Positions 2,354 to 56,091 of a stretch of 64,000 nt of DNA are shown here, piece by piece; the stretch's first letter is position 1, and each line of letters opens with the position of its first letter. Origin of the DNA: Pantoea vagans (GTDB taxonomy: Bacteria > Pseudomonadota > Gammaproteobacteria > Enterobacterales > Enterobacteriaceae); the NCBI RefSeq assembly GCF_004792415.1, contig NZ_CP038853.1:2170001-2234000 (forward strand), read 5' to 3'. The position numbers and the translations under genes are program-made. Under the pieces are notes generated by a model. The model saw only the letters and a list, made by a program, of their open reading frames with translations, made no database searches and had not been told where the DNA came from.

Positions 2354-3529
2354 ATGCAAAAAATGAACAATTCGCTGCAAAATTACGCATGGGGCAGCAA
2401 AACGGCGTTGACTGAGCTTTATGGTATTGCCAATCCCGAGGGTCTGCCGATGGCAGAGCTGTGGATGGGCGCACATCCGAAAAGTCCCTCAACTGTGATG
2501 GAACAAGGCAGCGCGCGTTCTTTACGAGACGTGATTGATGCGGCGCCCGCCGCGATGCTGGGTGACGCGGTAGCACAGCGCTTTGGTGAACTGCCGTTCC
2601 TGTTCAAAGTGCTGTGCGCCGATCAGCCGCTGTCGATTCAGGTCCATCCCAGCAAACGTGCGGCCGAAGTGGGCTTTGCCCGTGAGAATGCAGCGGGAAT
2701 TCCGCTGACAGCCGCCGAGCGCAACTACAAAGATGCAAACCACAAGCCGGAGCTGGTCTATGCGCTGACGCCGTTCCAGGCAATGAATGGCTTTCGCACG
2801 CTGACGCAGATGGTCTCCCTGCTGGAGCCGGTTGCGGGTGCACATCCTCAGATTGCCCATTTTTTGCAACATCCCGATCAGGAGACACTTGCTGCGCTGT
2901 TCTCCACCCTGCTGTCACTGGAGGGTGAAGCGAAATCGCTGGCGCTGGGCGTGCTGAAATCCGCGCTTGATGCGCAGCAGGGCGAGCCGTGGGAAACCAT
3001 CCGCATGATTGCGGCTGAATACCCTGACGACAGCGGCCTGTTTTCACCGCTGCTGCTGAATGTCATCACCCTGCAGCCCGGCGAGGCGATGTTCCTCTAC
3101 GCGGAAACCCCGCACGCGTATCTGAAAGGCGTGGCGCTGGAGGTGATGGCCAACTCTGATAACGTATTGCGGGCCGGTTTAACCCCGAAATATATCGATA
3201 TCGACGAGCTGATGGCCAACCTGAAGTTTGATGAAAAACCTGCCAGCTCGCTGCTGACGGAGCCAGAGCAACAGGGTCATGCGCAGCGCTTTCCGATTCC
3301 GGTGGAAGATTTTGCCTTTGCCATCCATAACCTGAACGCAGAACCGCAATCGCTGGCGCAGCAGAGCGCCGCCCTGCTGTTCTGCATCGAAGGCCAGGCG
3401 GTTATCGCCAAAGACGATCAGCAACTGACGCTGAAACCGGGTGAATCCTGCTTCATTGCCGCCAGCGAATCGCCGCTAACAGTCGCCGGTACGGGCCGGC
3501 TGGCGCGGGTATTTAACGACTTAGGGTAG
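2354..3529 (+). CDS. manA: Mannose-6-phosphate isomerase, class I
   Basis: Zn-dependent isomerase linking fructose-6-P and mannose-6-P, feeding GDP-mannose and polysaccharide synthesis or allowing mannose use. At 391 residues it is the normal length. The start MQKMNNSLQNYAWGSKTAL aligns with the E. coli N-terminus, which supports the ATG at 2354. Zinc-site motifs are visible: QVHPSKRAAE (about residue 96), HKPELVYAL (about 133) and ETPHAYLKGVALE (about 255). Followed by a clear terminator and then ydgA, as in E. coli. Confidence 0.97.
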   Translation: MQKMNNSLQNYAWGSKTALTELYGIANPEGLPMAELWMGAHPKSPSTVMEQGSARSLRDVIDAAPAAMLGDAVAQRFGELPFLFKVLCADQPLSIQVHPSKRAAEVGFARENAAGIPLTAAERNYKDANHKPELVYALTPFQAMNGFRTLTQMVSLLEPVAGAHPQIAHFLQHPDQETLAALFSTLLSLEGEAKSLALGVLKSALDAQQGEPWETIRMIAAEYPDDSGLFSPLLLNVITLQPGEAMFLYAETPHAYLKGVALEVMANSDNVLRAGLTPKYIDIDELMANLKFDEKPASSLLTEPEQQGHAQRFPIPVEDFAFAIHNLNAEPQSLAQQSAALLFCIEGQAVIAKDDQQLTLKPGESCFIAASESPLTVAGTGRLARVFNDLG

Positions 3530-45351: not shown

Positions 45352-46620
45352 CTACTTAACCGCCACCACCGGCAAATCCGCTACCCGTGTGGTATAGGCA
45401 GGTGACAGCATCTCGCGCTTCATCGCCCAGACCTTGTTGATCCCCTGCCCGGCAAACCACAGCTTTCCGCTGCCGGTTTTGTTAATTTTATCCATCAGCT
45501 GCATCAGCTCCTGGCTGTTGCGGCGCGGCTGATGCTCATCAAACAGATCAAGCTGGGCCACGCCCTGACTGAAAAAATCCCCCAGCACGATGCCCGCCTT
45601 GATATAGCGATATCCCTTAATCCAGATGTTATCCAGACACGCCATTGCAACGTTGATGATGTCGCGGGTGTCCTGCGTCGGGATCAGCAACTGGCCGGTG
45701 GACTGATTGCCATAAAAGGGTTCGTCAGTTGCGTGCGGGCTGGTGCGCAAAAATACCCCTATCTGACGGCAATACTGGTTCTCACGACGCAGTTTCTCTG
45801 CCGCGCGCTCCGCATAGGCACAGACGGCTTCGCGCATCTGGTCATAATCGGAGATGCGGCTGCCAAACGAACGCGAACACATGATTTGCTGCTTATCCGG
45901 TGTCACTGACTCCAGTTCCAGGCAGGATTCGCCACGCAGTTCCCTGACGGTACGCTCCATCACCACGCTGAACTGTTTGCGAATAGATTCGGTGCTTTGA
46001 TCGGCCAGATCTTTCGCCGTCATAACGCCCATGGCGTTAAGCCGTTTGCCGATCCGGTGCCCCACGCCCCAGACGTCAGCCACATCGATCAGTGCCAGCA
46101 GCTTTTTCTGTCGTTCGGGGTCCGACAGATCGACAATGCCGCCGGTTTTGCTCCACTTTTTGGCCGCAAAATTCGCCAGCTTGGCCAGCGTTTTGGTCTG
46201 TGCAATGCCGACGCCGACGGTCAGATGGGTCTCTTTGCGGATCCGTTCTTTGACCTGACGGCCAAAAGTCTCCAGCGCCATGCAGTTCTGCACGCCGGTG
46301 AGATCCATAAACGCCTCGTCGATCGAGTAGATTTCTACCGAGGGGGCCATCTCTTCGAGGATGGTCATCACCCGATGGCTCATGTCGGCATAGAGCGCAT
46401 AATTTGAGCTGAAGACCTGTACCGCGTGACGCGTCAGCTCTTCGCGCATTTTAAAATAGGGCGCGCCCATTTTAATGCCGGCTTTCTTTGCCTCGGCGCT
46501 GCGCGCAATCACACAGCCGTCATTGTTGGACAGCACCACCACCGGTTTGCCTTTCAGATCCGGCCGGAAAACGGTTTCACACGACGCATAAAAGCAGTTC
46601 ACATCGACCAGCGCGAACAT
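45352..46620 (-). CDS. umuC: DNA polymerase V catalytic subunit UmuC
   Basis: Y-family translesion polymerase, SOS-induced, error-prone bypass. 422 residues as in E. coli. Catalytic acidic residues are all in place: Asp6 in MFALVDVNCFYASCE and Asp101-Glu102 in YSIDEAFMDL. Helix-hairpin-helix region VWGVGHRIGKRLNAMG near 182 and beta-clamp-type C-terminus with VAQLDLFDEH near 355. Starts 2 bases after umuD; one transcript. Confidence 0.96.
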   Translation of the reverse strand: MFALVDVNCFYASCETVFRPDLKGKPVVVLSNNDGCVIARSAEAKKAGIKMGAPYFKMREELTRHAVQVFSSNYALYADMSHRVMTILEEMAPSVEIYSIDEAFMDLTGVQNCMALETFGRQVKERIRKETHLTVGVGIAQTKTLAKLANFAAKKWSKTGGIVDLSDPERQKKLLALIDVADVWGVGHRIGKRLNAMGVMTAKDLADQSTESIRKQFSVVMERTVRELRGESCLELESVTPDKQQIMCSRSFGSRISDYDQMREAVCAYAERAAEKLRRENQYCRQIGVFLRTSPHATDEPFYGNQSTGQLLIPTQDTRDIINVAMACLDNIWIKGYRYIKAGIVLGDFFSQGVAQLDLFDEHQPRRNSQELMQLMDKINKTGSGKLWFAGQGINKVWAMKREMLSPAYTTRVADLPVVAVK

Positions 46621-48836: not shown

Positions 48837-49040
48837 TTGCTGCTGCACTGCATCACCCGCCTCTTTTTTACCTCCCGCATTGCCTGCCCTGCCGGACCAC
48901 ATATAGCGCTACTATTTACCGTTTTTGCCGCTTATTTCACCTTAAATTGCGATTAATTGCTCTCGGTTCGCTTTATTTATCCAATATCTGTGTCCAGGCT
49001 TTTTCTGCATCCACTGCAAACACAGACGAGGAAAATAATC

Positions 49041-49889
49041 ATGTTTCATCATTCATCAAAACTTCAATTCCCGGTTCGTGTAGAGAAGCCCGATCCAGAG
49101 TTTGCCATGCTGTTACAGCAGGCAATCGGCGGCGTCGAAGGTTAGATTCGTGTAGCGATGCAATACTTTTTCCAGGCGATGGGCGCGCGGGGCGATGCGC
49201 GGATTCGGGATCTGCTGATCTCGACCGCCACCGAAGAGCTGAGCCATATCGAAATGCTGGGCTACGCCGTAGCGCTGAACCTTGAAGGCGCGCCGCTCTC
49301 TTACCAGGAAGCGTCAGCGAAAGATCCGGTCGTTAATGCAATTCTGGGCGGCATGAATCCGCGCCATATCCTCTCTTCCGGTCTGGCGGCAATGCCGGTG
49401 AACGCCAACGGCATGCCGTTCGACATGAGCCACATCTACGCCTCTGGCAACGTGGCGGCCGATATGCTGGCTAACGTCACCGCAGAAGCCACCGGCCGCG
49501 TACTGGCTACCCGCCTCTACAACATGACCGAAGACAAAGGCATGAAGGATTTCCTCTCCTTCCTGATCGCCCGTGACACCATGCACCAGCAGCAGTGGCT
49601 GGCGGTAATCGAAGAGATGGGTGGCCTGAACGCGTCACTGCCGATCCCGAACAGTTTCCCGCAGGAACATGAGGCGCAGGAGCACTCTTACTACTGCCTG
49701 AATACCTCGCTGGATAAACCGCTGCCGGAAGGACGCTGGAGCAGTGGCCCGGCTTACGATGGTCATGGTCAGTTCAGCGCGAAACAGCAGCCCGAGATTC
49801 TGGGTGATGAGCCGCTGCTCGGCAATGCCCGTCCCGGCTCCGGTGCGCAGTCAGAGCAGATTGACGGCGTTACGCCACCGAAACCTTAA
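49041..49889 (+). pseudogene. Manganese (non-haem) catalase with in-frame amber codon
   Basis: Dismutes hydrogen peroxide at a di-manganese site. The full frame is 282 codons with one TAG at 49143-49145 (codon 35); homology continues without frameshift on both sides (KLQFPVRVEKPDPEFAMLLQ before, AMQYFFQAMGARGDARIRDL after). By the Lactobacillus plantarum numbering the Mn ligands are Glu35, Glu66, His69, Glu148 and His181. Here Glu66 and His69 (TATEELSHIEMLG), Glu149 and His182 are present, and the amber stands exactly at residue 35. A single GAG to TAG change explains it. Likely a nonsense pseudogene; re-initiation at ATG 49158 would lack the ligand. Ribosome site GAGGAAAATAATC. SDR gene follows. 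Confidence 0.88.
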
Positions 49890-49896
49890 TTACCCG

Positions 49897-49928
49897 CCTG
49901 TCAGGGATCGATGCCCTGACAGGTTTTT
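49897..49928 (+). terminator. Terminator between catalase and SDR genes
   Basis: CCTGTCAGGG/CCCTGACAGG arms (49897-49906, 49914-49923) followed by TTTTT. Confidence 0.85.
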
Positions 49929-53826: not shown

Positions 53827-56091
53827 ATGTCGAAAGAAACCGAGAAGAAACCCCTGAGCGAACGCGCGCCGACCACCGGCCCGGAATCATCAGAGCCGGG
53901 GCTGGGATCGCTGGCACCGAAAGATGGTTCACATCAGCCCCCAGCCGAACCGACCCCGCCAGGCAAACAGCCTACCGCCCCGGGCAGCCTGAAAGCGCCA
54001 CAGACACACAACGCCAAACTTGACCAGCTTGAAGCCAGCCGCAAAAACGGCACCGACCGCCCTCTGACCACCAACCAGGGCACACGCATCGCCAACGATC
54101 AGAACTCACTGCGTGCCGGTTCGCGTGGTCCGACCCTGCTGGAAGACTTTATTATGCGTGAGAAGATCACGCACTTTGACCATGAGCGTATCCCGGAGCG
54201 TATCGTGCACGCCCGTGGCTCTGCCGCACACGGCTATTTCCAGCCTTATCGCTCCCTGAAAGATCTGACCAAAGCGCAGTTCCTCAGCGATCCCGAGCAG
54301 ACCACCCCCGTCTTCGTGCGTTTCTCCACGGTTCAGGGCGGCGCAGGTTCTGCCGATACCGTGCGAGATATCCGCGGTTTCGCCGCCAAGTTCTACACCG
54401 AAGAGGGTGTGTTTGACCTGGTCGGCAACAACACGCCTGTGTTCTTTATTCAGGATGCGCACAAATTCCCTGACTTTGTGCACGCCGTGAAGCCAGAGCC
54501 GCACAACGAAATCCCGCAGGGCCAGAGCGCCCATGACACCTTCTGGGATTACGTCTCTCTGCAGCCGGAAACCATGCACAACGTTATCTGGGCGATGTCT
54601 GACCGCGGTATTCCGCGCAGCTATCGCACCATGGAAGGCTTTGGTATTCACACCTTCCGCCTGATCAACGCCGAAGGCAAAGCGACCTTTGTCCGCTTCC
54701 ACTGGAAGCCGGTGGCCGGTAAAGCCTCGCTGCTGTGGGATGAGTCGCAGAAACTGACCGGTCGCGATCCCGATTTCCATCGCCGCGATCTGTGGGAAGC
54801 GATTGAAGCGGGTGACTTCCCGGAATATGAACTGGGTCTGCAGCTGATCCCGGAAGAAGATGAGTTCAAATTCGACTTCGATATTCTGGATGCCACCAAG
54901 CTGATCCCGGAAGCGCTGGTGCCGGTAGAGATCGTCGGCAAGATGGTGCTTAACCGTAACCCGGACAACTTCTTTGCCGAAACCGAGCAGGTGGCGTTCC
55001 ACCCAGGTCATATCGTGCCGGGTCTGGATTTCTCCAACGATCCGCTGCTGCAGGGTCGTCTCTTCTCCTATACCGACACGCAGATCAGTCGTCTGGGCGG
55101 ACCGAACTTCCATGAGATCCCGATCAACCGTCCGACCTGCCCGTACCATAACTTCCAGCGTCAGGGCATGCATCGTCAGGATATCGACACCAATCCGGCA
55201 AACTACGAGCCGAACTCGATCAACGACAACTGGCCGCGCGAGACCCCACCTGCTGCAACCGGTGGCGGCTTCGAGAGCTATCAGGAGCGGGTTGAAGGTC
55301 ATAAAGTGCGCGAGCGCAGCCCGTCGTTCGGTGAATATTATGCGCAGCCGCGTCTGTTCTGGAACAGCCAGACAGAGGTTGAGCAGCAGCACATCATTGG
55401 TGCCTACTCGTTTGAGCTGAGTAAAGTGGGTCGCGCCTATATCCGTGAGCGCGTGGTCGATCATCTGGCACGCATCGATACTAAGCTGGCGCAGGGCGTG
55501 GCGGATAACCTTGGACTTGCGCTGACTGATGAGCAGCTTAATATCCAGCCGCCGGCAGCGGTGAACGGCCTGACCAAAGATGACAGCCTGAGCCTTTATG
55601 CCATCCCGGATGGTGAGATTAAAGGTCGTCAGGTGGCGCTGCTGCTGAGCGATGGCGTGAAAGCCGCTGATGTGCTGGCGATTCTGCAGGCACTGAAAGC
55701 GGAAGGTGTGCACACCAAACTGCTGGCACCGCATATGGGCCAGGTGCGCGCGGATGACGGTTCAGTGCTGCCGGTTGATGCCACCTTTGCCGGTCTGCCT
55801 TCTCTGACCTTTGATGCGGTCATTGTGCCAAATGGCAATATCGATGCTCTGCTGCTAAGCGGCGATGCCCGTTACTTCCTGCTGGAAGCCTATAAACACC
55901 TTAAGGTGATTGGTCTGGTGGGCGACGCACGTCGCTTTAAAGCGCAGTTCGGCCTGGAAGATGCCGATCAGGAAGAAGGCATTGTGCAGGGCGACTCCGC
56001 TGAGATCGCGCTGATGTCGGAGTTCACGCAGGCGATGAAAGCGCACCGCGTCTGGTCCCGCAGCCAGAAGGCACAGTCCGTTCCGGCCTGA
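53827..56091 (+). CDS. katE: Catalase HPII
   Basis: Large-subunit haem catalase, 754 residues (E. coli 753). Long N-terminal arm; distal haem His128 in [14 protein letters not shown], same number as E. coli; proximal Tyr in [20 protein letters not shown] near 415. C-terminal flavodoxin/GATase-like domain [20 protein letters not shown] to the end, as in large catalases. Stationary-phase peroxide defence. The GGAG before it is 9 bases from the ATG; a two-codon ATG-GAT-TAA frame overlaps the start as TAATG. With the Mn catalase disrupted, katE would be the main catalase in this region. Confidence 0.97.

Follow-up and report, generated by a model that had tools for sequence, protein, structure and literature searches.

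The Mn catalase locus

The DNA analysed here (hereafter the window) comprises 64,000 nucleotides of the chromosome of LMG 24199T, the type strain of the plant-associated bacterium Pantoea vagans, in a genome whose replicons measure 4,050,173, 559,692 and 180,464 bases. Between 45352 and 56091 it contains a run of stress-type genes: a umuDC-like pair, YmgB, an Mn catalase, an SDR gene, a UvdE-type UV endonuclease, ZinT and katE. The Mn catalase frame spans 282 codons and is open throughout, except for a single in-frame TAG that replaces codon 35 and thus lies far ahead of the end of the family match (Table 1). Translation of the whole frame revealed no frameshift, and despite the internal TAG the frame scores 261.4 bits against the PF05067 profile (cut-off 27). 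Both results bear out the initial annotation, which had described a frame intact apart from this codon. A Pfam Mn_catalase search of the whole genome returned the window locus alone, and hence no second copy by family. A segment of the Mn catalase gene has an 84% identical counterpart of 43 bases on the smallest contig (G000:C3:13319-13361). For a 12,000-base portion of this contig, the best match, at 97.2%, is a P. vagans plasmid.

Table 1. Features of the Mn catalase locus and its surroundings, in window coordinates
Feature	Position	Strand	Basis or remark
Mn catalase gene, PF05067, with internal stop; probable nonsense pseudogene	49041..49889	+	frame translation and Pfam search
In-frame TAG at codon 35; Glu in 80/80 named loci	49143..49145	+	translation and locus alignment
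Open frame of 34 residues, up to the amber	49041..49145	+	translation
GAGG, likely ribosome-binding site of the original start	49028..49031	+	inferred from bases read by eye
Open frame of 243 codons from the ATG at codon 40, nearest possible restart	49158..49889	+	lacks residues 1-39
Hairpin and T run, intrinsic-terminator-like, directly 3' of Mn catalase	49896..49928	+	-20.8 kcal/mol, z -4.66
katE, haem catalase HPII, intact	53827..56091	+	open frame and Pfam

The hairpin that follows the catalase gene lies 26 bases ahead of the SDR start. In a search with a short pattern, the same hairpin was recovered in three of five relatives (L113, L114 and L115; not found in L116 and L119). A simple scan found no promoter-like site, and the same scan did not list the hairpin either. 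The position of the hairpin between the two genes raises the question of where the SDR promoter lies. A polar effect of the amber on the SDR gene was set aside in view of this strong hairpin and T run after the catalase stop.

Besides the Mn catalase gene, the genome encodes two further catalases. The katE frame is open and without stops, as the initial annotation had stated, and a KatG frame of 750 residues, likewise without stops, is located at C1:1484565-1486388.

Codon 35 corresponds to a conserved Glu

The full-length orthologue P0004 aligns with the Lactobacillus plantarum enzyme 1jku from residue 1 and without gaps until about residue 91; codon 35 therefore corresponds to Glu35 of 1jku, which we take to be an Mn ligand. 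The proposal that the TAG sits at the first Mn ligand is thereby upheld as far as the position is concerned, with the ligand role of Glu35 itself being presumed. Farther along the same alignment, residues 149 and 182 of the window protein match residues 148 and 181 of 1jku. In the available text of PMC11796326, the catalytic set of 1JKU is given as EEEEHH (four Glu and two His), with His69 and His181 printed; the portions available of PMC6061251, PMC11796326 and PMC6616624 do not name Glu35 as a ligand of this enzyme. The window gene encodes the remaining ligand residues Glu66, His69, Glu149 and His182, whose presence, noted in the initial annotation, was confirmed by alignment, so that position 35 alone is a stop and four of the five ligands are specified.

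Relatives of the window protein carry Glu at position 35 without exception where the position can be read. Among the 80 named loci, which are those kept by the scan out of 455 that encode a relative, each of the five ligand positions is invariant (80/80 each). The initial annotation had named a non-Glu residue in relatives as evidence against its claim, and none of the 80 has one. A listing of 120 database proteins, out of 2462 below the search cut-off, gives the same picture: 116 have Glu35, and the remaining four are short entries without the position. Short entries starting at Met47 or Met40 (P0009, P0033, P0084 and P0106) may reflect other breaks or choices in start calling.

How much weight the position deserves can be judged from the closest intact orthologue, in which 80 one-base changes, distributed over 63 codons of which 20 encode Glu, would create a stop. 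Ligand codons account for 3 of these 80 changes and codon 35 for 1; for both His ligand codons, a stop is unreachable in one base step. That the amber falls on a ligand codon is hence weakly unusual, a mild coincidence. As a stop acts by truncation and not by residue replacement, the coincidence has no mechanistic weight: an amber at codon 35 removes everything downstream, whatever residue was encoded there. The title of the initial annotation, which presented the amber as placed exactly at a ligand, thus reads too much into the position.

The gene in other Pantoea genomes

Within the genus, 61 genomes were searched, that of the type strain included, and 26 others have a locus that covers the gene (L113-L138). 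Full-length, intact orthologues are found at 24 of the 26, and the other two are broken in a different manner, L131 near residues 94-103 and L138 near residues 167-186; these frame breaks could themselves be assembly errors. Glu occupies codon 35 at 25 of the 26 loci, and L131 is unreadable there because its frame breaks. At the level of the taxonomic family, 43 of 295 sampled genomes, again with the type strain included, match the Mn catalase family, and among the matches listed a stop lies inside the gene only at the window locus. Neither the same amber nor any other stop at this place was seen in another genome, be it among the 80 named loci or the 25 readable genus loci (0/80 and 0/25), in genome collections with a single genome for each species; the proteins searched come from a set clustered at 90%. 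Two further genomes contain possible remnants: G334 shows two short matches inside the Mn catalase gene on contig 3, and G240 a partial match to the Mn catalase family on contig 10.

The amber is probably recent

The closest relative of the window locus is that of 'Candidatus Pantoea gossypiicola' (G313; L113/L032), from which the window gene differs by 25 synonymous codons, one missense codon and the amber. With codon 35 left out, these differences correspond to a dN of 0.0016 and a dS of 0.143. When L114 is used as the outgroup, nine synonymous changes, no missense change and the amber are assigned to the window branch, with four sites ambiguous. Given 643 nonsynonymous and 200 synonymous sites in the gene, ca. 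29 missense changes would be expected on a fully neutral window branch, a rough figure that ignores mutation bias, and none is seen. By the same rough measure, any period free of selection spans about one tenth of the branch or less. Judging from these codon changes, the Mn catalase appears to have been under strong purifying selection until recently, and the lack of missense changes on the window branch indicates that the lesion is recent. Among the options that the initial annotation had offered, the young nonsense allele, which it had placed first, is accordingly the best supported. Its further suggestion that the intact katE may have relaxed selection on the Mn catalase gene is plausible, yet the history of the gene is strongly purifying up to the amber.

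Is the TAG an error in the deposited sequence?

The main rival holds that the strain carries an intact gene and that the deposited chromosome has one wrong base, which creates the TAG. A single substitution in a gene that shows no other decay, and that was under strong purifying selection until very recently, fits such an error as well as it fits a young allele. Further support comes from P0011, a P. vagans database protein with Glu35 whose contig, at 4,050,121 bases, is 52 bases shorter than the chromosome studied here. P0011 shows that not all P. vagans database entries share the amber; should it derive from a second assembly of this strain, an error must lie in one of the two sequences. Even so, P0011 comprises 260 residues, the first being Met23, and departs from the window protein at ten other positions: the ligand His69 is replaced by Arg, and nine further changes are missense. 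P0011 may belong to a different strain in which the gene is decaying, be a noisy sequence, or indeed come from a second assembly of this strain. When P0011 itself served as the query of a further protein search, the 13 hits included no new P. vagans entry.

Two lines of evidence argue against a base error. According to the available text of the genome paper, Illumina and long reads were combined and the scaffolds verified with Illumina data (PMC8307521). Moreover, the rest of the window looks clean by comparison with three relatives. For G296, a relative with 95% identity, 63 open frames were taken from the stretch that matches the window; 61 frames have a window match, and 41 are intact, 16 are flagged and 4 lack a match above 75% identity. 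The corresponding figures are 20 of 21 frames with a window match for G313 (15 intact, 5 flagged) and 42 of 60 for G343 (27 intact, 8 flagged). Pfam was used to test ten flagged frames that contain stops or odd pieces: six gave no match; the stops in the pdxH-like, MliC-like and manA frames lie before or after the domains; and for the YmgB frame, the window's own frame is open across the domain. The stop flagged in katE precedes its start codon. Among the flagged frames so tested, a stop inside a domain occurs only in the Mn catalase; flagged frames with stops that fell outside the Pfam test are L207_2982_3302 and the first pieces of L206_5062_5601 and L207_6555_7349. Taken together, these observations make a wrong base in the deposited chromosome unlikely, if still a serious contender.

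Restart at codon 40

Translation could conceivably resume behind the amber and yield a stable fragment of 243 residues with another role, or a poorly active protein. Restarts are known after early nonsense mutations in other genes, and here the next in-frame ATG follows the stop by 12 bases. The fragment alone still matches Pfam Mn_catalase with 213.4 bits; on the other hand, this match covers profile positions 40-262, such that the first 39 positions, including that of Glu35, are missing, and with them the beginning of the fold. In addition, the bases ahead of the codon-40 ATG, read by eye, contain no well-placed ribosome-binding site. The fragment would be expected to be inactive, and a functional product of this kind is highly improbable.

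Readthrough of the amber

Alternatively, UAG might be decoded at a useful rate and give rise to a full-length protein with another residue at position 35, an idea compatible with the entirely open frame 3' of the stop. None of the 79 tRNA genes found by an Rfam tRNA search, all 79 of which were recovered by ARAGORN, has the CTA anticodon that would read UAG (0/79), and a suppressor tRNA was rejected on these grounds. Of the 185 first-look candidates in that search, 150 were scored, and 80 tRNAs are counted in the available text of the genome paper (PMC8307521); one tRNA could thus have been missed. The gene for RF1, prfA, contains no stops and scores 571.8 bits against a cut-off of 423.25, with no sign of loss or change. 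TAG also serves as an ordinary gene end in the window, where it closes 7 of 61 greedily chosen open frames, among them manA (2354-3529, named through a relative) and the umuC-like gene (45352-46620). Since all relatives examined lack the stop, nothing conserved is there to be programmed, and recoding was rejected on the combined grounds of intact RF1, ordinary TAG gene ends and absence in relatives. Any basal readthrough would put another residue at a position that is invariant in the 80 named loci. The initial annotation had rated readthrough as the less likely option; with RF1 intact, no UAG-reading tRNA among the 79 and Glu in every readable relative, it is very unlikely as a working mechanism, and a useful rate of decoding is barely credible.

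Discussion

We conclude that P. vagans LMG 24199T has probably lost the function of its chromosomal Mn catalase gene to a recent single-base nonsense mutation, a reading to which we assign a probability of roughly 0.8. A change of one base would have turned codon 35 into TAG, and translation would end after 34 residues. Were ribosomes to restart at the ATG of codon 40, five codons downstream, they would produce at most a 243-residue fragment devoid of residues 1-39, the Glu35 position among them, in which the two-manganese site would not be expected to form. To judge from the gene content, removal of H2O2 would then be left to KatE, KatG and other enzymes. Mn catalase activity would thus presumably be absent, and without a large fitness cost. 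So regarded, the locus seems to be nothing more unusual than the recent loss of a stress gene, with overlapping functions encoded elsewhere in the genome.

The breaks found in other Pantoea loci, together with the two P. vagans records, allow a broader and more tentative reading, namely that recent losses of the Mn catalase have occurred more than once across Pantoea. At least two routes would then be found within P. vagans: in the type strain the amber that takes the place of the Glu35 codon, and in the second record the replacement of His69 along with other missense changes. This pattern would point to a change of niche that renders the catalase dispensable, which we consider a doubtful though not far-fetched proposal.

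The consequences of an inactivating amber, as favoured above, are chiefly a matter of caution. Provided that the stop is genuine, Mn catalase activity is probably lacking in the type strain of P. vagans, and transferring annotation from this strain or comparing phenotypes with it could lead astray. Should the recurrent breaks in Pantoea be confirmed, the gene would offer a modest natural example of redundancy, with three catalases involved. The literature on Mn catalase, katN and Salmonella, on Pantoea Mn catalase and on Pantoea catalase pseudogenes or nonsense alleles contains, in the parts available, no report of the amber allele, and the accessible portion of PMC3137637 does not mention catalase.

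A related enzyme has been studied in Salmonella. A review states, in the text available, that growth of Salmonella under oxidative stress and shortage of manganese does not seem to require its Mn catalase, and names redundancy as the likely reason (PMC9315381). That enzyme belongs to a different subgroup from the window protein, within the same Pfam family. All 30 of the KatN-type loci (L002-L031), so labelled because their N-termini resemble that of the Salmonella Mn catalase as printed in the accessible part of PMC9037549, encode Glu at the position aligned with residue 35. With identities to the window protein of 28.6 to 37.1%, they form a different subgroup and are not orthologues.

The characterized dimanganese catalases (PF05067; L. 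plantarum 1jku) are members of the same family, and the window gene keeps four of their five ligand positions, the fifth being the amber. In contrast to these enzymes, the window frame is interrupted and would not be expected to yield a full-length product. The general kind to which the locus would belong is that of dispensable bacterial genes turned into nonsense pseudogenes. Like them, it combines one substitution and no further decay with overlapping functions kept elsewhere in the genome; unlike usual examples, it bears its stop on a metal-ligand codon.
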